DNA from: Myxococcales bacterium
GTDB lineage: Bacteria; Myxococcota_A; Bradymonadia; Bradymonadales; Bradymonadaceae
DNA: 64,000 bases
Direction of reading: 5' to 3'
NCBI GenBank assembly: GCA_007120035.1
Contig: SKON01000054.1
Coordinates: 1 to 64,000 of the forward strand
The first letter of the stretch is position 1, and the number at the start of each line of letters is the position of its first letter. A model generated the notes under the pieces. That model was not told the DNA's origin and did not search any database. It worked only from the letters and a program-made list of their open reading frames with translations. Shown one piece after another: positions 6,211 through 54,978 of this stretch. Made by a program: the position numbers and the translations under genes.

Positions 6211-6891
6211 TTATCGAGTTCGAGTGGGTCGGGCTCCGCCGCCACCGCTCTCTTCCTGTTGCTCTTCGGCTCCGCCCCCGCGGGTCCCGCGAGTGGGCCG
6301 GGCTCCACCACCGGCCGCGCCGTCATCGGCCTGACGGCCGGGGCGCTGCAACCGCGGCGCCGCCTCTTCTCGAGCCGGTCGTCCGCGCTCTTCCCGAGTA
6401 CCCCGGGGGCTCTCCGCAGGCGCCGCCGCAGGACGCCGCTCCTGAGCGGCTTCGGCGGCTTCGGCACCACCACCACGATGCTCTCGCTCCTCACGAATCC
6501 GCTCCGCCAGCGCACGACCACGCAGCCCATCGTCGTGGACTCGAGCTCGCACATACTGGCCGAAGTTCTCCACCGGCCCGTGCTCACGAGCCGCTTCTGC
6601 TTCGGCTCGGAACGTCTCGGCCGCTTCCCCGGCCCGGGTTCGTCGCTCTTCAGCGTCTTCCTGCGCCGGCGCCTCTCGGAACGCACGGAGGGCCTCTCGG
6701 ACCTGCTCCTCGTCCACTCCAGACTCCCGAAGCTCTTGCACCGCCGCCGGCAACTCGAACATCGCCAAGATCTCAGCGCCCCGATCCTCAGCCTCATCGG
6801 CCTGCGCCACAGCGGGCACCAACAACATCAGACATAGACCCGCGCACAACCCGTGCACCAGCCCCCGTCGTCCTCGATTCTCTCTCATCAT
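6211..6891 (-). CDS. secreted helical, Arg/Glu-rich protein of unknown function
   Basis: 226 residues with a clear signal peptide (basic MMRENRGRRG, hydrophobic GLCAGLCLMLLVP, cleavage near AVAQA). The mature part has one predicted helical region (EILAMFELPAAVQELRESGV, then EEQVREALRAF) followed by low-complexity Arg/Gly/Glu sequence with repeated GGGARPTRG/TR near the end. No known domain recognised. It precedes the 5857 lipoprotein on the same strand and is divergent from the 7026 operon with a 134-bp gap. Other frames over this stretch are open too because of the composition; the signal peptide favours this one. Confidence 0.65.
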   Translation of the reverse strand: MMRENRGRRGLVHGLCAGLCLMLLVPAVAQADEAEDRGAEILAMFELPAAVQELRESGVDEEQVREALRAFREAPAQEDAEERRTRAGEAAETFRAEAEAAREHGPVENFGQYVRARVHDDGLRGRALAERIREEREHRGGGAEAAEAAQERRPAAAPAESPRGTREERGRPAREEAAPRLQRPGRQADDGAAGGGARPTRGTRGGGAEEQQEESGGGGARPTRTR

Positions 6892-7025
6892 TCCTCCGTT
6901 TCTCTCCGGTAGCTAACTGCGGACCGAGCCACAGTACACCATTTTTCCGCAAAAGTAGTCCTCTGATTCTCGATAACCCTTCTGACATCGCCACTGGTCT
7001 TCCCAAGTCTTCCCAAGGAGCACCC

Positions 7026-7448
7026 ATGAACCTCCTCGTCTCGCCACTCCTCTTCGCGATCTCCCTTTGCTTTGCCGACTTTGTCACCCCAGAGACGCCT
7101 CCCTCCCCATGGCTCCACGCTATGATCCCCACCGTGGCCCTCGGCGCGGACATCCAGGATCTTCGCCACGCGACAGACGCCCGCGTTCACCCCCTCGTAG
7201 ATCTGGAGCACCGCACCCACCGTATGACCCGCTGGACCATCGGGCTGCGGTGGACCACCCCTGCTCCTCGCCAGTTCGAGTTTCCCCCATCCTCAGCCCC
7301 CCTGCCAACCCTCTGCGATCAGTGGGCCCATCTCCGCCAGCTCCGGCCCTCGACGCTCCCGGAAGCACTCGACCACTGGATCCTACACCAGACCCTCCTG
7401 TCCCTCGCCATGCGCCACCTCGAACTCCACCACGGAGCGACCCGATGA
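7026..7448 (+). CDS. secreted protein of unknown function, first gene of a three-gene operon
   Basis: 140 residues. AAGGAG sits 5 nt upstream of the ATG. The N-terminus MNLLVSPLLFAISLCFA is a plausible signal peptide. The mature part contains RWTIGLRW, which alternates like an outer-membrane strand, and a helical C-terminus (TLPEALDHWILHQTLLSLAM). The stop overlaps the next start by ATGA. The pair of direct repeats CTTCCCAAG at 6999-7016 lies directly before the Shine-Dalgarno. No family recognised; most likely an envelope component working with the next two products. Confidence 0.65.
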   Translation: MNLLVSPLLFAISLCFADFVTPETPPSPWLHAMIPTVALGADIQDLRHATDARVHPLVDLEHRTHRMTRWTIGLRWTTPAPRQFEFPPSSAPLPTLCDQWAHLRQLRPSTLPEALDHWILHQTLLSLAMRHLELHHGATR

Positions 7449-8110
7449 AGAGAGCCCTCCCACTCGTCCTCTGGAGCCTCTTGGTATTCTCCACCTCCCC
7501 GGCGTTCGCCCTCTCCCCCGAGGACAGCCTTGCCCTTCGCCGAGCTCTCTCCGCCTTCGACCACGAGCCCGACATCTACGCCGTCCAAGAGGCCGCCCTC
7601 GACCACCGAGAGCTCACCGGCGACTCCCTTGATCGCTACAGCCGCCGGGCCCGCCGCTCCTCCCTGATCCCCCAGCTACAGGCCCAGGCCAGCTGGCTGG
7701 ACCAGCGGGACGTCCGCCACCGGTTTCGCGAGAACATCCGGGCCGACGACGACGGCTTCTACGCCCCCAACACTGCCAACCACCACCTCGACGACGACTT
7801 CCGGTTTCGCGGTCTCTACTCCATACGCCTGACCTTCGACCTCTCACGGCTCGTCTTCCACCCCCAGGAGCTCCCCATCCAACGCGAGGTCTCTCGCCAA
7901 TGGACCGCCCGAGAGCTCCTCTTACAAGAGATCACCGAGCTTTACTTCGCCCGACGCCGGCACCAGGTGCTCCTCCTGCTCAACCTCGCCGAGTCCATGG
8001 AGGACACCCTGGATCGCCTCCTCGCCATCGACGCCCTCACGGCCCGCATCGACGCCCTCACGGGCGGCTGGTTTCGCGCCGCTCTCGAAGATCTGGAGGA
8101 CTCCCCATGA
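7445..8110 (+). CDS. periplasmic/outer-membrane-associated protein of unknown function
   Basis: 221 residues from the ATG that overlaps the upstream stop. Signal peptide MKRALPLVLWSLLVFSTSPAFA. The mature protein is helical at its start, then has strand-like segments (RGLYSIRLTFDLSRLVF), then a long helix (RELLLQEITELYFARRRHQVLLLLNLAESM) and a second one. This helix-strand-helix pattern is faintly TolC/OEP-like but far too short, so I do not assign it. It overlaps the next gene by 4 bp. Confidence 0.65.
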   Translation: MKRALPLVLWSLLVFSTSPAFALSPEDSLALRRALSAFDHEPDIYAVQEAALDHRELTGDSLDRYSRRARRSSLIPQLQAQASWLDQRDVRHRFRENIRADDDGFYAPNTANHHLDDDFRFRGLYSIRLTFDLSRLVFHPQELPIQREVSRQWTARELLLQEITELYFARRRHQVLLLLNLAESMEDTLDRLLAIDALTARIDALTGGWFRAALEDLEDSP

Positions 8111-48931: not shown

Positions 48932-51058
48932 ATGCGACTCACCGCTCTGCTCCCTACCCTGGCCGCGTGCCTCTTCTTCGCCGCCCCGGCCCTGGCCGAC
49001 ACCGATCCCGGACAGCCCGAGACGGCGCCGGCCCTGGACCGCAGTGCCGCCGATGCCCTGACCGCCATAGCCGGCGAGCTCCGGGCCGAGGTCCACCGAC
49101 AGCGCCCGGCCGCTCAGAGCGACCATCCCCTGACCGTCGACGAAGCGTTCCGCCAGATCCCGGCCCCGCGACAACCGGGAGACGTGTTCAACTGGGTCCG
49201 AGACCACATCGACTTCGAGCCCTACGAGGCGACCCTACGAGGCCCTCAAGGGACCCTCATCGCCGGCTCGGGCAATGCCATCGATCAAGCCCTCCTCGCC
49301 AGAGCTCTGTTGAGCCGGGCCGGGTTCGACTCCCGCTTCGTCACGGGCCGACTCCACCGGGCCGACGCCGAGACGGTCCTCCGAAACACCCTGGGCTCGG
49401 CCTCCCTCTTCCTCGACGGAGACCGGGTCGCCACGGACACCGCCGCCGATCCCCGGCGAGACTCTCTCGTGGCTTCCCTCCAGGATCACATCTGGCTCGA
49501 GGTGCGCCAGGGAGACGAGCACCGGCCCTTCGACGTCGTCGCCGCCCCGCTCTTCGGCATCACCCCGGCCACCCCGTCGGAGCGCCACACCTCGATCCCC
49601 CGATCCATGCAGTCCACCCTCCGCGTGCAGCTCGTCAGCCACCTCACCGACGATCAATCCGAGAACAACATCACCCTCGAGGGACCGCTGCACCAATTCG
49701 CCTACCGGACCATCTCCTTGTCCTTCGAGGACGACCTGGCCCGCCGCGGCGGCCACCGCCCGGTGGTCACCATCGACGACGAGCGCAGCGCCGGGATCTC
49801 CCTCCCCGTCGCTGACCTCCAACACCTGGAGCTGCGGTTTCAGATGCGCATCGGCACCAGCGAGCACCGATGGCGTCAGACCCTCTTCCGTGAGGACCAG
49901 GGCACCCACATCTTCGACATGGATCACCAGCACTTCAGCATCGCCGTGATCCCCGGGTGGACCTCCCCCCACCACACCTCGGGCCTGACCGCCGACGCTA
50001 CCGAGGAGGCCCTCTCCGCCGTCGACGCCTGGATCTCCGCCGCCCAACAGGGCCCCACGGGCGTGCGAGAACAGGAGAACGCCGTGATGAACCGCCTCGG
50101 CGCCTCTCTTCCCTTCGCCTTCGCCCAGAACCTCGATCGGGCCACCGTCGCTCTGGCCTCTCGACACGGGGTCTTTCCCGTGATGACTCGCCCTCGGGTG
50201 GTCACCACCGGAATCCTTCGCCGCGGCGACCAGCTCCACGTCGACTTCCAGGTCGCCGGCGACCGCCTGGAGACCTACCCCCGAGAGGGCATCCCGACCC
50301 TGGCGGCCCAAGCCTTCATGGGCCTCTACGGCCAGACCCGTCACGAGCTCGTCGGCGAGATGATTCGCCAGTACTACGGGCGGCAAGGCTCCGCCACCGT
50401 GGGCCGGGTCTTTCGAGAAGCCTCCCGGGCCCGAGTACCCTTCACCACCATTCACGGCGGCGCCATGGATCGCCTGGAGTCCCTCACTCTCGGCTCCATC
50501 GCTCGGGAGGCCATCGCCCGATCCATCCGACAGCAGAGCCGGATCGTCCTCGCACCCACTCGACACGTCGAGATCGAGGGCATCGATCGGGCCGGCTGGT
50601 GGGCCCTGGACACCGCCTCGGGGCTGATCGACGGGGGCACCGCCGACCCGCTGCTGACCATCGTCGCCGATACCGAAGACAGGACCCTGCCCGTGGACAC
50701 CCTGATCCGAACCCACCTCCACCTGATGGTCCAACACTACTCGGCGGCCGCCCAGGCCGCCGACGTCACAGACCGCTTCGCCGGCGTGACCTGCTCGGCG
50801 GCCCGACAGTTCCTCAACCTCGGCCGGGCGTACTGCGCCACCTCGAGCCCCATCGCCCTGCCGTCCCTCTCCTCCTGTCTCGACGATCCCCCCAGCCCCG
50901 GCGCCGGGCTCCTCAACATGCAGCGAGTCTCCTGCGAGGACCAACTCGCCCCCACTCGCTGCGCCGCCCTGATGGCCACAGCCTTCCTCGACGGCCGCCT
51001 GGCCGTCGCCGACTCCAGCGCCTCCTCCCCACCTATGCTCTCCGGTCTCTGCTCCTAA
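48932..51058 (+). CDS. secreted transglutaminase-like protein lacking the nucleophile Cys
   Basis: 708 residues with signal peptide MRLTALLPTLAACLFFAAPALA. Residues 85-210 match the transglutaminase-like core in outline: VFNWVRDHIDFEPY, GSGNAIDQALLARALLSRAGFDSRFVTGRLH, HIWLEVRQGDEHRPFD. The position normally held by Cys at the start of the core helix is Asn115; His186 and Asp201 are kept. The remaining 500 residues are beta-rich, then helical, with a Cys-containing C-terminus (CSAARQFLNLGRAYC, CLDD, CEDQ). A non-catalytic binding protein is possible. It begins 77 bp after the MBL gene and converges with the JAMM gene (4-bp overlap). Confidence 0.72.
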   Translation: MRLTALLPTLAACLFFAAPALADTDPGQPETAPALDRSAADALTAIAGELRAEVHRQRPAAQSDHPLTVDEAFRQIPAPRQPGDVFNWVRDHIDFEPYEATLRGPQGTLIAGSGNAIDQALLARALLSRAGFDSRFVTGRLHRADAETVLRNTLGSASLFLDGDRVATDTAADPRRDSLVASLQDHIWLEVRQGDEHRPFDVVAAPLFGITPATPSERHTSIPRSMQSTLRVQLVSHLTDDQSENNITLEGPLHQFAYRTISLSFEDDLARRGGHRPVVTIDDERSAGISLPVADLQHLELRFQMRIGTSEHRWRQTLFREDQGTHIFDMDHQHFSIAVIPGWTSPHHTSGLTADATEEALSAVDAWISAAQQGPTGVREQENAVMNRLGASLPFAFAQNLDRATVALASRHGVFPVMTRPRVVTTGILRRGDQLHVDFQVAGDRLETYPREGIPTLAAQAFMGLYGQTRHELVGEMIRQYYGRQGSATVGRVFREASRARVPFTTIHGGAMDRLESLTLGSIAREAIARSIRQQSRIVLAPTRHVEIEGIDRAGWWALDTASGLIDGGTADPLLTIVADTEDRTLPVDTLIRTHLHLMVQHYSAAAQAADVTDRFAGVTCSAARQFLNLGRAYCATSSPIALPSLSSCLDDPPSPGAGLLNMQRVSCEDQLAPTRCAALMATAFLDGRLAVADSSASSPPMLSGLCS

Positions 51059-51588
51059 CCCGCCGGAGCTGGCTCCCGCGCCGCCGCGAGCCCCAGGTCC
51101 GCCGCCGTCCACCGACGGACCGCCGCGAACCCCCGGACCTCCTCATCGAACCGAAAGAGGCTCGCCCCGTCCGTTCGGCCCCCTCGCACGGACACCACCA
51201 GGTAGTCCGTCCCGGGGTACACCGGCTCCAAGGGCTCCTCCTTGGACATCCGGGGCATCGTCGCCGCCGCCACGTCCTCGTCGCTGAAGTAGTCCCCCAC
51301 GTCCGGATGGCTGTGCACGATCACGGCCACCCGCTCACCGCGCTCGTCGGCCTTCATGAACTCCCGAGGGTCGATCAGGTAGAAGTCCCTCGACGTCCGC
51401 GGATAGGTCTCGGGATCCACGGCGTGGTACTTATCGGCCAGGTTCTCGCACTCCACGAACCGCAGATCACCGTCGGCCTCTAACACCAGCCCGCACCCCT
51501 CGCAGGGATATGCCTTCTCCACCCAGGTCACGGCCTGGCGCAAGAGCTCTTCACCAGCGGTTCCATCAAACTCTGTGGGTCCTACCAT
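51055..51588 (-). CDS. JAMM/MPN+ metalloprotease, Mec/QbsD/HcyD-like
   Basis: 177 residues from the ATG at 51588 (GGAG upstream; the frame also opens at TTG 51600). Complete JAMM signature: E30 (CEGCGL), then H92-S-H94-P with S102 and D105 in DYFSDED (HxHx7Sx2D). Single-domain JAMM enzymes of this kind process sulfur-carrier proteins: Mec removes cysteine from CysO, and QbsD or HcyD trim residues beyond the carrier's Gly-Gly. The start is 1 bp beyond the cysM stop, and the carrier gene is two genes upstream, so this operon makes the same role likely. Confidence 0.88.
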   Translation of the reverse strand: MVGPTEFDGTAGEELLRQAVTWVEKAYPCEGCGLVLEADGDLRFVECENLADKYHAVDPETYPRTSRDFYLIDPREFMKADERGERVAVIVHSHPDVGDYFSDEDVAAATMPRMSKEEPLEPVYPGTDYLVVSVRGGRTDGASLFRFDEEVRGFAAVRRWTAADLGLAAAREPAPAG

Positions 51589-51589
51589 C

Positions 51590-52537
51590 TCATTCTCCAA
51601 AGTATCGGTCGGCGTGATCGCAGATCACAGTCACCACCACCCCTTCGGTCAACTCACGAGCTACCTCGAGCGCCGCGACCACGTTCGCCCCGGCGGAGTT
51701 CCCGCAGGCGATCCCCTCCTCCTTGGCCAGGGTCTCGGCCATATCCCACCCGTCCTCGGTCTCGATCCACCGGATCTCGTCGAGCTCGTCTTCCTTGTAG
51801 ATCCCCGGCTTCAGGCTGCTCGGCATATGCTTCAATCCCTCCAGCCCATGGAACGCGTCCGCCGGCTGGGACCCGACGATCCGCACCGTCGAGCTTCGCT
51901 CTCGCAAGCCTCGCCCGGTCCCCATCACGGTCCCCGAGGTCCCCGTGGACGCCACGAAATGGGTCACTCGCCCGCCGGTCTGGGCCCAGATCTCCGGCGC
52001 CGTCGTCAACTGGTGAGCCCGGGGGTTCGACGGGTTGTGATACTGGTCGGCGTAGTAGTAGAGCCCCTCTTCGTCCTCTTCCACCAGCTTCCGAGCCAGG
52101 CGGATCGCACCGTCGCTCCCCTCCATGGGGTCGGAGTAGACGATCTTGGCCCCGTAGACCTCGACGATCTCCTTTCGCTGTGGGGAGACGTTCTCAGGCA
52201 TCACCAGGTGGACCGGGATCCCCAGGGAGGCTCCAATCATCGCGTAGGCGATCCCCGTGTTTCCGCTGGTCGCGTCCAGAAGAATCTTCCCATTTCCCAG
52301 ATCGCCCCGGTCCAGGGCGTCCTTGATGATCTGCCGGGCCGGCCGGTCCTTCACGGACCCGCCGGGGTTCATGCTCTCCATCTTCACCCAGACCTCGACC
52401 CCGTCGGCCAGGTCCCGGGTCACCGACCGGAGCCGCACCAGCGGCGTGGCTCCGATCACCTCCAACAACCCCTCGTGGCGCCGAGGGGGGCGCACCCCCT
52501 CGAGCCGCTCCGTCCAGGCCGGATGAGACGAACTCAC
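51590..52537 (-). CDS. cysM: CysM-like O-(phospho/acetyl)serine sulfhydrylase
   Basis: 315 residues from a GTG overlapping the carrier-gene stop. All PLP elements of the cysteine-synthase family are intact: K63 in GGSVKDR (Schiff base), TSGNTGIAYA, STGTSGT phosphate loop and CGNSAGANV (Ser near the pyridine nitrogen). It begins with LLEVIGATPLVRL. It makes cysteine from an activated serine; next to a CysO-like carrier, the sulfur is probably delivered as a protein thiocarboxylate, as in Mycobacterium CysM. Catalytic partner of the next-upstream genes. Confidence 0.9.
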   Translation of the reverse strand: MSSSHPAWTERLEGVRPPRRHEGLLEVIGATPLVRLRSVTRDLADGVEVWVKMESMNPGGSVKDRPARQIIKDALDRGDLGNGKILLDATSGNTGIAYAMIGASLGIPVHLVMPENVSPQRKEIVEVYGAKIVYSDPMEGSDGAIRLARKLVEEDEEGLYYYADQYHNPSNPRAHQLTTAPEIWAQTGGRVTHFVASTGTSGTVMGTGRGLRERSSTVRIVGSQPADAFHGLEGLKHMPSSLKPGIYKEDELDEIRWIETEDGWDMAETLAKEEGIACGNSAGANVVAALEVARELTEGVVVTVICDHADRYFGE

Positions 52538-52815
52538 GACCGCCCTCCTGCGATGGCCGGGACGATGGACACCAGATCCCCTTCGCTCAACGGCGTCTCG
52601 AGCTTCTCCTGAAACCGGATGTCCTCATCGTTGGCAAAGATGTTCACGAACCGCCGCACAGCACCGTCGTCGGAGAAGATCTTCGACTTCAGCTCCGGGT
52701 GGCTCTCCGTGAGATTCATCAGAGCCTCGCCAACGGTGGCGCCTTCTACGGCCACCTCTTCCTGGCCGGCCGTGAACTTTCGCAGGGGGGTTGGGATTCG
52801 TACTTGAACGGTCAT
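52534..52815 (-). CDS. CysO/ThiS/MoaD-like sulfur-carrier protein with C-terminal Gly-Gly-Arg-Ser
   Basis: 93 residues from the ATG at 52815 (GGAG 8 nt upstream). Ubiquitin-like fold: MTVQVRIPTPLRKFTAGQEEV, ATVGEALMNLTESHP, RFVNIFANDEDIRFQEKLET, GDLVSIVPAIAGGRS. MoaD, ThiS and CysO normally end exactly in Gly-Gly, which is adenylated and thiocarboxylated. Here Arg-Ser follow the Gly-Gly, so the carrier must be trimmed before use; the JAMM protease of the same operon is the candidate. No ThiF/MoeB-type activating enzyme is in the window. Confidence 0.9.
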   Translation of the reverse strand: MTVQVRIPTPLRKFTAGQEEVAVEGATVGEALMNLTESHPELKSKIFSDDGAVRRFVNIFANDEDIRFQEKLETPLSEGDLVSIVPAIAGGRS

Positions 52816-52868: not shown

Positions 52869-53759
52869 TCAATGTAGGTGCTTCTCCCATCCCAGATAGC
52901 GCTGCCCCGAATCGGGATTCAGGGCCACGATCACCTCGTCGGGAGACACCTTTTCCTGCAACTCCATCGCCAGCCCGACGCAGGCCGCGCCTTTGGGACC
53001 CAAGAGCAGCCCCTCCTTGCCGGCGATCTGATCTCGGAGCTCGAAGGCTTCCTTCATGGAAAACCGCTCCAGAGAGTTGAACTTATGCTCCTTGAAGTCG
53101 GGCAAATTGACCTCTCCGAGGATCGCGCCGCCCATATTCAGTGCTGGCCGGGTCTCCCGGAGCTCCCGGGCCACGTGCCGGAAGGTGCCCCCGGTAGTCA
53201 CGGAGGTGATGAACGCCCCCAGCCGCTGTCCCTGCAAGGACTGCAGGATCTCCGCGGCCATCCCCCCGTAGGCATCCCGCACCGCCTCCCGGCGAATCCC
53301 GTCCACGTACATCCGATCCGACGCCTTTCGGCTCCAGGCCGCCGCTTCGGTCACCGCCCCGGGGAGTCCCCTGTCACCATCGGTCCAGATCAGCTCCGCG
53401 CCGTAGCGCCGACTCAGTTCCCACAAGCGCTCATCGCTGCCCTCCGGGACATACACCCGGGTGTGGATCCCCAGCACGGACCCGATCATCGCCGCCGCCG
53501 GGGCCGAGTCGTCGAGCCCGGCCAGGGCCACGGTATCACCGGCCACCAACATCCCTGCCGCCACGGCGCGCTCCAGAATCTCGGCGATATACCGGTCCCG
53601 GATACTCCCGCTGGGGTTCATATTCTCCATCTTCACGTAAATCGGTGCCCCGCCATCTCTGCCGATCCGCTTCAGCCGCACCATCGGCGTGTTGCCCACC
53701 AGCTCGTCGATCCGCTCCACCACAGGAGCCTGCTCCGGAGACAGCCCTTCAAATGACAT
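52869..53759 (-). CDS. cysteine-synthase-family pseudoenzyme
   Basis: 296 residues from the ATG at 53759 (GAGGGG 7 nt upstream, inside rrf2). It is collinear with CysM (VVERIDELVGNTPMVRLKRI, YVKMENMNPSGSIRDRYIAEIL, AAAMIGSVLGI, LNPDSGQRYLGW), but every PLP-contact motif is changed. The Schiff-base Lys is Arg54 (codon CGG at 53,598-53,600), TSGNTG has become GLDDSA, the phosphate loop GTSGT reads TTGGT, and the pyridine-contact GNSAGA reads GPKGAA. The frame is open and fold residues are kept, so it is a maintained non-catalytic protein, not a decaying gene. It overlaps the Rrf2 gene by 11 bp, pointing to a regulatory partner role. Confidence 0.88.
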   Translation of the reverse strand: MSFEGLSPEQAPVVERIDELVGNTPMVRLKRIGRDGGAPIYVKMENMNPSGSIRDRYIAEILERAVAAGMLVAGDTVALAGLDDSAPAAAMIGSVLGIHTRVYVPEGSDERLWELSRRYGAELIWTDGDRGLPGAVTEAAAWSRKASDRMYVDGIRREAVRDAYGGMAAEILQSLQGQRLGAFITSVTTGGTFRHVARELRETRPALNMGGAILGEVNLPDFKEHKFNSLERFSMKEAFELRDQIAGKEGLLLGPKGAACVGLAMELQEKVSPDEVIVALNPDSGQRYLGWEKHLH

Positions 53760-54207
53760 ACACAAACCCCTCGTAGCCTTGCCTGGGGACCCCCAGCGCT
53801 TCTCCTCTCTCCACCAGATCGGCGATGGTCACCTCCTCCCAGAGGCCCACCATCCGCTCCACGACTTCCCCGCACATCTCATCGGCCACAGCGGCCACCC
53901 CCCCGGACTCCCCACAAGATCTCTCCCGAGCCACCTCGGGGACCTCGGGCAGATCCTCGAGGGCCTCCAAAATCCTCGCCAGGGTCAGCTCTTCCGCGGG
54001 AGCCACCAGAAAATACCCCCCCCCGGGCCCTCGCTTGCTCGCCACGATCTCCGCCCGCTTCAACTCCTGGAAGATCTGCCCCAGAAACTGACCCGGGATC
54101 TGCGCTCTCTCCGCGATCTTCTGGGCCTGCACCGGCTCATCACCCCCGTGATAAGCCAGGTCAACGACGGCTCGCAGGCCGTATATGGTTCGGTGAGAGA
54201 GGCGCAT
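53749..54207 (-). CDS. Rrf2-family transcriptional regulator (CymR/IscR-like)
   Basis: 152 residues. Rrf2 winged HTH: MRLSHRTIYGLRAVVDLAYH, VQAQKIAERAQIPGQFLGQIFQELKRAEIVASKRGPGGGYFL, then the signalling helix. Two cysteines (C97, C111) lie where IscR has its three cluster ligands; with only two, Fe-S binding is uncertain and a CymR-like mode is as likely. First gene of the cysteine operon; a palindrome over its own promoter (54,225-54,248) suggests autoregulation of the whole operon. The Shine-Dalgarno is weak. Confidence 0.88.
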   Translation of the reverse strand: MRLSHRTIYGLRAVVDLAYHGGDEPVQAQKIAERAQIPGQFLGQIFQELKRAEIVASKRGPGGGYFLVAPAEELTLARILEALEDLPEVPEVARERSCGESGGVAAVADEMCGEVVERMVGLWEEVTIADLVERGEALGVPRQGYEGFVYVI

Positions 54208-54224
54208 CGTCGATTGTTGACCTT

Positions 54225-54248
54225 TTTACTCGGAAACTTCGGAATAAA
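54225..54248. promoter_or_regulatory. 24-bp imperfect palindrome, likely Rrf2 operator
   Basis: Half-sites TTTACTCGGAAA and CTTCGGAATAAA (plus strand) match their own reverse complement at 18 of 24 positions by my count. It lies 18 bp before the rrf2 start codon and covers the predicted -10. Length and form fit Rrf2-family operators. Confidence 0.6.
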
Positions 54249-54269
54249 CCCAACCAATCAACTCGACAA
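54241..54269 (-). promoter_or_regulatory. candidate promoter of the rrf2-cys operon
   Basis: On the minus strand TTGTCG (54,264-54,269), 17-bp spacer, TATTCC (54,241-54,246). The leader would be about 27 nt. The -10 is inside the palindrome, so a bound regulator would block polymerase. Confidence 0.42.
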
Positions 54270-54357
54270 TATCTACGTTCATTCCCATCACGAGTCAACC
54301 GCTTTGCAACACCCCCTCTTGACCCACTCGATCCGGTTCGTGGGGGTACACAGTGAT

Positions 54358-54848
54358 GGCGTCGAGTTTTGGGCGTTGCGAAGGACCTCGGAACGTCGGG
54401 GTTGGCGACGAAGGGTTCCGATGCGTTGGGGTTGGCGACGGATCATTTCCCCACCGAGTTCAGGGTCCCCACGGTCTCCCCCCGGAAAATCCCGGGGGCT
54501 AGACAGTAGTGGGGCTCCACAGGGGCCAAGGCCCCGTTCCGCCGTGGGCACTGGAACGGCTCGACAGACCGTTGACGGGTCGCCGGTTCAACACACCCCC
54601 GTGGCTCCGAACTCACCACGAAGGCCCTTTCCCAGTACGCTGAGAATCTTCGAAACATCTCGGTGGAGCGGCCCCTTGGGGCCTGCGTAGCCCCACTACA
54701 TTATAGCCCCCGGGATTTTCCGGGGGTAGACCGTGGGAGCCCTGTACTATGCTCGGAAATGACCCGCCGCAAACCCGGACGCCACGAACGATGCCGACGC
54801 CAACCCCGACGTTCCGAGGTCTTTCGCAACGCCCAAAATTCGACGCCA
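54358..54848. repeat. inverted pair of REP-like composite elements (copies B and C)
   Basis: Left arm 54,358-54,545 and right arm about 54,660-54,848 are inverted copies around a ~115-bp spacer. Each arm, read inward, has the conserved edge TTTTGGGCGTTGCGAA, one to three 30-bp units (ACCTCGGAACGTCGGGGTTGGCG), TCATTTCC, a CCCCCGG/CCGGGGG stem (54,479-54,498; 54,707-54,726), and a second palindrome, GGGGCCAAGGCCCC (54,522-54,535) in B and GGCCCC-TT-GGGGCC (54,670-54,683) in C. Copy A at 808-1137 has the same order. I see no gene in the whole gap 54,270-54,978. Confidence 0.8.
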
Positions 54849-54978
54849 GCACCACGGCGACCCGGAACGCCCCCCGAACCTCCATCGATCTCTTGGGCAC
54901 AGCCGTCGGGCCCTGTACTCTCCAACGGGTAGTCTCCAACGGGACCGTTTCCCCACCTCCGAGCCCTCAAAGCCCTCC

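Follow-up and report, generated by a model that had tools for sequence, protein, structure and literature searches.

A conserved cysteine synthase-like pseudoenzyme adjoining an Rrf2-family regulator in CysO-CysM operons of the Bradymonadales

In Bacillus subtilis and Staphylococcus aureus, cysteine metabolism is the target of CymR, an Rrf2-family repressor with a flexible Tyr-x-Ile end that uses the active cysteine synthase CysK as its co-repressor, and formation of the CymR-CysK complex has been published (PMC2869319; also PMC4961446). CysE, a CdiA toxin and EGL-9 each bind through a C-terminal Ile to the cleft of CysK or of its homologue CYSL-1 (PMC12895370, PMC5562914, PMC4961446). CYSL-1 of Caenorhabditis elegans, whose biosynthetic activity is said to be lost, acts as a sulfide sensor by binding the EGL-9 terminal Ile (PMC5562914). 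It provides a precedent for a CysK homologue without biosynthetic activity, although it is an animal protein that keeps a bisulfide site and is partnered by a prolyl hydroxylase instead of a transcription factor. In the mycobacterial CysO-CysM-Mec pathway, a CysO-type carrier, CysM and a JAMM protease are encoded in one operon, and to our knowledge that cluster is not headed by an rrf2-cysK pair.

The operon described here lies in a 64,000-nucleotide stretch of contig SKON01000054.1 (the window) from a member of the Bradymonadales, an order of predatory bacteria. Its genes, all on the minus strand, run in the order rrf2, pseudo-cysK, cysO, cysM and the JAMM protease gene (mec):

53749..54207, minus strand: Rrf2-family regulator of 152 aa with C-terminus -EGFVYVI (Pfam Rrf2, 98.8 bits)
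52869..53759, minus strand: pseudo-cysteine synthase of 296 aa with the PLP lysine replaced by Arg54 (open reading frame and alignments)
52534..52815, minus strand: CysO/MoaD-type sulfur carrier with C-terminus AIAGGRS (ThiS, 59 bits; start and end orthologous)
51590..52537, minus strand: CysM with catalytic lysine and active-site motifs intact (TIGR01138, 367 bits; alignment with CysM orthologues)
51055..51600, minus strand: JAB/JAMM protease, Mec-like, with an HSHP..S..D motif (Prok-JAB, 55 bits; motif read in the sequence)

As a preliminary description of this DNA had stated, rrf2 and pseudo-cysK overlap by exactly 11 bp (53749-53759, counted to the pseudo-cysK ATG) and the CysM of the same operon is intact. 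With a carrier bearing GG near its C-terminus, an intact CysM and a JAMM protease, the operon holds the components of the CysO-CysM-Mec pathway; unlike the mycobacterial cluster, it adds a regulator and a pseudoenzyme. Like the CymR-CysK system, it pairs an Rrf2-family protein with a Tyr-x-Ile tail and a link to cysteine metabolism with a candidate partner of the CysK fold. Unlike in that system, the neighbour is catalytically dead, has no O-acetylserine loop and does not keep the Thr, Ser, Thr and Gln that bind Ile, and the target is apparently the local CysO-CysM operon. For cysO, a longer open reading frame starting at 52890 is unconserved, and the start at 52815 was used. In the window (52534-52560) CysO ends in AIAGG followed by RS; relatives have LR, KP or RA, and others end exactly at AIAGG. 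Judging from these sequences, carriers with residues beyond AIAGG may have to be trimmed, and the JAMM protease is a possible candidate for this step.

The pseudo-cysK product scores 129 bits against Pfam PALP and 120-129 bits against CysK/CysM models, far under their cut-offs of 344-394. Its AlphaFold2 model is confident (pLDDT 85) and has CysKs as its top Foldseek matches (TM ~0.75), and these results together assign it to the beta-family (fold type II) PLP fold. The NPGGSVKDR of active enzymes is NPSGSIRDR in the pseudoenzyme, with Arg54 (codon CGG) at the Schiff-base lysine position, and GLDDSA, TTGGT and GPKGAA stand in place of TSGNTG, GTGGT and the GNSAGA/GISAGA loop, all of which bears out the preliminary description. 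Further losses, absent from that description, affect the Q142 equivalent and the entire KIQGIGAG loop, of which the pseudoenzymes as a group retain little or nothing. Relative to 18 Rrf2-linked CysKs, and in approximate E. coli-type numbering assigned by alignment, the pseudoenzymes show K41 changed to R, T68 to G, S69 to L, I, V or A, N71 to D or N, T72 to S (C in one), Q142 to G, S or A, G176 to S or T and S272 to K; G70 is also changed, and the phosphate-loop T-G is retained.

These replacements are conserved across the order. Arginine occupies the lysine position in 20/20 full-length orthologues, which come from two families of the order, f1 (that of the window) and f2, and whose carriers include cultured members such as Lujinxingia vulgaris, as well as in 18/18 sequences of the active-site alignment; R156, R157 and P255-K256-G257 are likewise invariant in the 20. 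The preliminary description had named conservation of Arg54 in relatives as a test of its reading, and within the Bradymonadales no lysine-keeping homologue of the pseudoenzyme adjoins Rrf2. Among three congeners, dN/dS is 0.036-0.051 for the pseudoenzyme, 0.018-0.047 for CysM and 0.059-0.085 for Rrf2; together with the invariant Arg54, this indicates a conserved pseudoenzyme and not decay. A decaying, functionless remnant could account for the short, very divergent relatives in family f4 and for a long stem branch that marks a burst of change, but every full-length relative of the order keeps an open frame and 33 columns are invariant over 20 species. We consider such a remnant highly improbable, and for the Bradymonadales dN/dS refutes it and rules out a pseudogene. 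An assembly artefact is also ruled out, since the same replacement recurs in independent genomes, single-contig ones included. Arg54, Arg156, Arg157 and Lys256 are predicted from the alignment with CysK to form one basic pocket.

Gene order and phylogeny agree on the origin of this protein. Most of the other Myxococcota fetched, which were picked by their tailed Rrf2, carry rrf2-cysK-cysO-cysM-mec, sometimes with intervening sequence. These operons share with the window the order, the tailed Rrf2, CysO, CysM and the JAMM protease, whereas their CysK is intact (NPGGSVKDR, TSGNTG, GTGGT), 18/18 keeping all 14 active-site positions examined, and their operator-like site is TTGACANNNCCGATGNGG. In the inferred tree all pseudoenzymes form one clade (100/99), which falls with the Rrf2-linked CysKs and apart from CysM, whose own branch has support of 100/100, although the long pseudoenzyme stem makes the exact sister uncertain. 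We therefore regard it as nearly certain that this is a conserved pseudoenzyme descended from an Rrf2-linked CysK. Tree and operon slot rule out a duplicate of CysM, and the earlier proposal of a duplicated synthase that left CysM free for catalysis is wrong, the protein being derived from the CysK whose lysine-bearing form still occupies this slot in other Myxococcota. The claim that no system with this layout had been described is borne out where the synthase is dead, since the freely accessible papers searched contained no pseudo-OASS with Rrf2. With a live CysK the same layout is widespread in the phylum, although we found no paper on those operons, and CYSL-1/EGL-9 is a precedent.

The distribution of the pseudoenzyme is narrow. 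Its family profile gives 372-491 bits in full-length f1 and f2 members and at most 176 bits in any other genome among 379 of the phylum, and a pattern-limited scan of 84,980 species matched only records consistent with Bradymonadales plus one weak unrelated match. Family f4, of the same class, has a very divergent, short relative between rrf2 and cysO, with His or Trp at the lysine position and the phosphate loop lost. Adjacency with Rrf2 is seen in f1, f2 and f4. In G033, a class-level relative, a tailed Rrf2 is present and the pseudoenzyme is lost. Bradymonabacteria have been described as polyauxotrophs without phosphoserine aminotransferase, almost all of whose genomes lack de novo vitamin B6 synthesis (PMC7460792); one may speculate that this deficiency made a PLP enzyme easier to lose.

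The genome also carries, on contig C276, a normal cysK with cysE behind it and, on C184, a cystathionine beta-synthase-like gene, so that the organism does not depend on pseudo-cysK for the chemistry of the fold. The C-terminal Ile of CysE anchors cysteine synthase complexes; the CysE of this genome (G000:C276:3502-3981, L272) ends in ...PSKKTG and, as with other CysEs of the family, has no C-terminal Ile, and canonical competition by the CysE tail was rejected on this basis. Some CysMs of the order have diverged as well. The CysM at L121 (G022, same order; 6884-7966) also lacks the PLP lysine (NPGGSVSDR) and lies on a long branch; judging by its sequence, this operon may contain two dead synthases. 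Beside the pseudoenzyme at L105 and L115 (G001, G012), CysM keeps the lysine, reads STGSIG for TSGNTG, has V for the pyridine-N serine and lies on a very long branch; CysO was not found in these two genomes.

The loss of catalytic machinery under strong selection suggests an enzyme turned into a regulatory or sensing protein, and we hold a regulatory rather than catalytic role to be very likely. Residual enzymatic function, through new PLP-free or Arg-based chemistry or through non-covalent PLP binding, could explain the retained fold, the partly kept phosphate loop (T-G-[GAS]-[TA]) and the new invariant charged residues. We judge it improbable, since the lysine, the Asn loop, the Gln and the pyridine-N Ser (now Lys) are all replaced and the f4 protein in the same slot has His or Trp for the lysine and not even a phosphate loop.

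The Rrf2 protein carries a tail of the CymR type, a feature absent from the preliminary description. Its C-terminus, -GFVYVI, has the Tyr-x-Ile ending seen in S. aureus CymR (YMFYI), although it scores only 57.1 bits against the CymR model NF047409 (cut-off 195). Among the Rrf2 proteins compared from these loci, the terminal Ile is present in 52/52 and Tyr at -3 in 51/52, and F148, Y150 and I152 are invariant in 12 orthologues from f1 and f2. The last eight residues (145-152) have pLDDT below 50 in the model, and a tail that is disordered yet invariant bears the signature of a short docking motif. Gene overlap as the only source of this conservation was rejected, since the tail is kept in f3 and f6 Rrf2 proteins with neither a pseudoenzyme nor a CysK adjoining. 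Fe-S sensing of the type of IscR, which has three cysteine ligands, was also rejected: the protein reaches 85 of 207 bits against the IscR model, and the f1 and f2 orthologues have no conserved cysteine set. In f1 genomes we also observed a second Rrf2 protein, Rrf2b (L284 6110-6559 and relatives), with an invariant C-terminal -YQI; its neighbour is presumably a DUF368-type membrane protein, recognised by its ADIIPGVSGGT motif.

Upstream of rrf2 we identified the following candidate elements:

54269..54298, minus strand: candidate promoter TTGACT - 17 nt - TAGATA, with similar elements in the same place upstream of rrf2 orthologues of the family
54246..54266, minus strand: operator-like box 1, TCGAGTTGATTGGTTGGGTTT, at -59 from the rrf2 ATG, matching 11/16 here (weak)
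54213..54233, minus strand: operator-like box 2, CCGAGTAAAAAGGTCAACAAT, at -26 from the rrf2 ATG, matching 14/16 here

An automatic sigma-70 promoter and terminator scan found no element above threshold. Both boxes follow the consensus TTGASYNNNNNRGTCRASAAT, with 16/16 reached for box 2 in the best relatives, and the -59 spacing of box 1 is common to most family members. For the window, and likewise for six relatives, 0/300 shuffles reached the score of the better box. The site proposed in the preliminary description, 54,225-54,248, partly overlaps both boxes, which actually lie at 54,213-54,233 and 54,246-54,266. The two boxes recur across f1 genomes, although the better one is weak in L118 and could not be located in most f2 genomes. 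A single palindrome of this kind is present in the majority of f4 genomes, and CysK-bearing members of the phylum have the different site TTGACANNNCCGATGNGG. A wider regulon was rejected, as perfect or one-mismatch sites beyond the operon are few and scattered in the genomes. Just upstream of the promoter (54353-54852) lies an imperfect long inverted repeat with 192-nt arms (80%); searching the genome with one arm yielded 74 matches, often arranged as facing pairs with about 100 nt between them, and the repeat is one of a large family of non-coding hairpin-type repeats.

The Tyr-x-Ile tail and the two boxes make a CymR-CysK-like partnership plausible, and to that extent the Rrf2-partner role proposed for this real and unusual Rrf2-linked dead synthase may hold. 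That the pair is dedicated is not supported, given the nine Rrf2-less genomes described below, G033, and the replacement of the residues that hold Ile and O-acetylserine. Nine f1 genomes have the pseudoenzyme without a tailed operon-type Rrf2 (G001, G003, G004, G005, G007, G008, G010, G011 and G012), G005, G008 and G011 being single contigs and G001, G007 and G010 fragmented drafts. On the tree this absence corresponds to two losses, or to one if a weak branch (72/95) is wrong. No good box match was found ahead of the operon in the Rrf2-less genomes, and the basic pocket residues are identical with and without Rrf2. Rrf2b, with its conserved tail, is present in all nine except G001 and G012, so one regulator may have replaced the other.

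The same evidence bears on which protein receives the tail. The Ile-binding residues T, S, T and Q (PMC12895370) are G, L/I/V/A, S and G/S/A in the pseudoenzyme, whereas the operon CysM and the CysK of C276 keep the canonical residues reported to bind a C-terminal Ile, and the tail may thus bind CysM or CysK instead. On this account, which we take as a serious possibility without expecting it to hold, Rrf2 would dock in intact CysM or in the CysK of the cysK-cysE locus, and the pseudoenzyme would have a separate non-catalytic task in the CysO-CysM pathway, such as forming mixed dimers with CysM or holding CysO. It fits a tail consensus hardly altered despite the rebuilt cleft next door, the f3 and f6 tailed Rrf2 proteins, which with no CysK-type gene adjoining could dock only in trans, and the persistence of the pseudoenzyme, pocket unchanged, beside CysO-CysM in the Rrf2-less G003, G008 and G011. 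Against it, the pseudoenzyme is by descent the original neighbour, and likely partner, of Rrf2, and a pure CysM or CysO subunit role does not cover G005, where the pseudoenzyme lacks CysO and CysM orthologues and only the JAMM gene lies alongside.

On whether the pseudoenzyme is the direct partner of the operon Rrf2 we are evenly divided, and the full account that we find best, a regulatory protein that serves as Rrf2 co-regulator through tail docking and answers to a new ligand, has in our view about even prospects. Its first part follows from the data: in the ancestor of these Myxococcota a catalytic, Rrf2-linked CysK was stripped of the PLP lysine, the substrate loop and the entrance loop while its fold was kept, and strong purifying selection has since maintained it within the rrf2 - pseudo-cysK - cysO - cysM - mec operon. 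Its present role is most likely to regulate, without catalysis, the cysteine pathway that depends on CysO. Where Rrf2 is retained it would act as co-regulator of that repressor: much as CymR is taken to engage CysK, the flexible Tyr-x-Ile-COOH terminus would dock on the CysK-like cleft and so stabilise or release Rrf2 at the two boxes ahead of the operon. With the binding loop gone, the signal would no longer be O-acetylserine, and would instead be a ligand of the conserved Arg54, Arg156, Arg157 and Lys256, possibly the CysO tail or a pathway metabolite bearing a carboxylate or phosphate group. A more specific version, in which the dead synthase arose as the dedicated ligand-sensing subunit of the transcription factor, its site rebuilt as a basic pocket reading the state of the CysO pathway, and acquired other partners later, seems to us rather unlikely.

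The Myxococcota thus offer a before-and-after series of an enzyme becoming a regulator within one operon, with CysK live in most Myxococcota examined, dead and conserved in the Bradymonadales, heavily eroded in a sister family and lost in G033. With this series one can test whether CysK, as a partner in CymR-type regulation, has to be catalytic or to bind O-acetylserine at all, and in what way cells sense sulfur status where cysteine is made via a protein-bound sulfur carrier.
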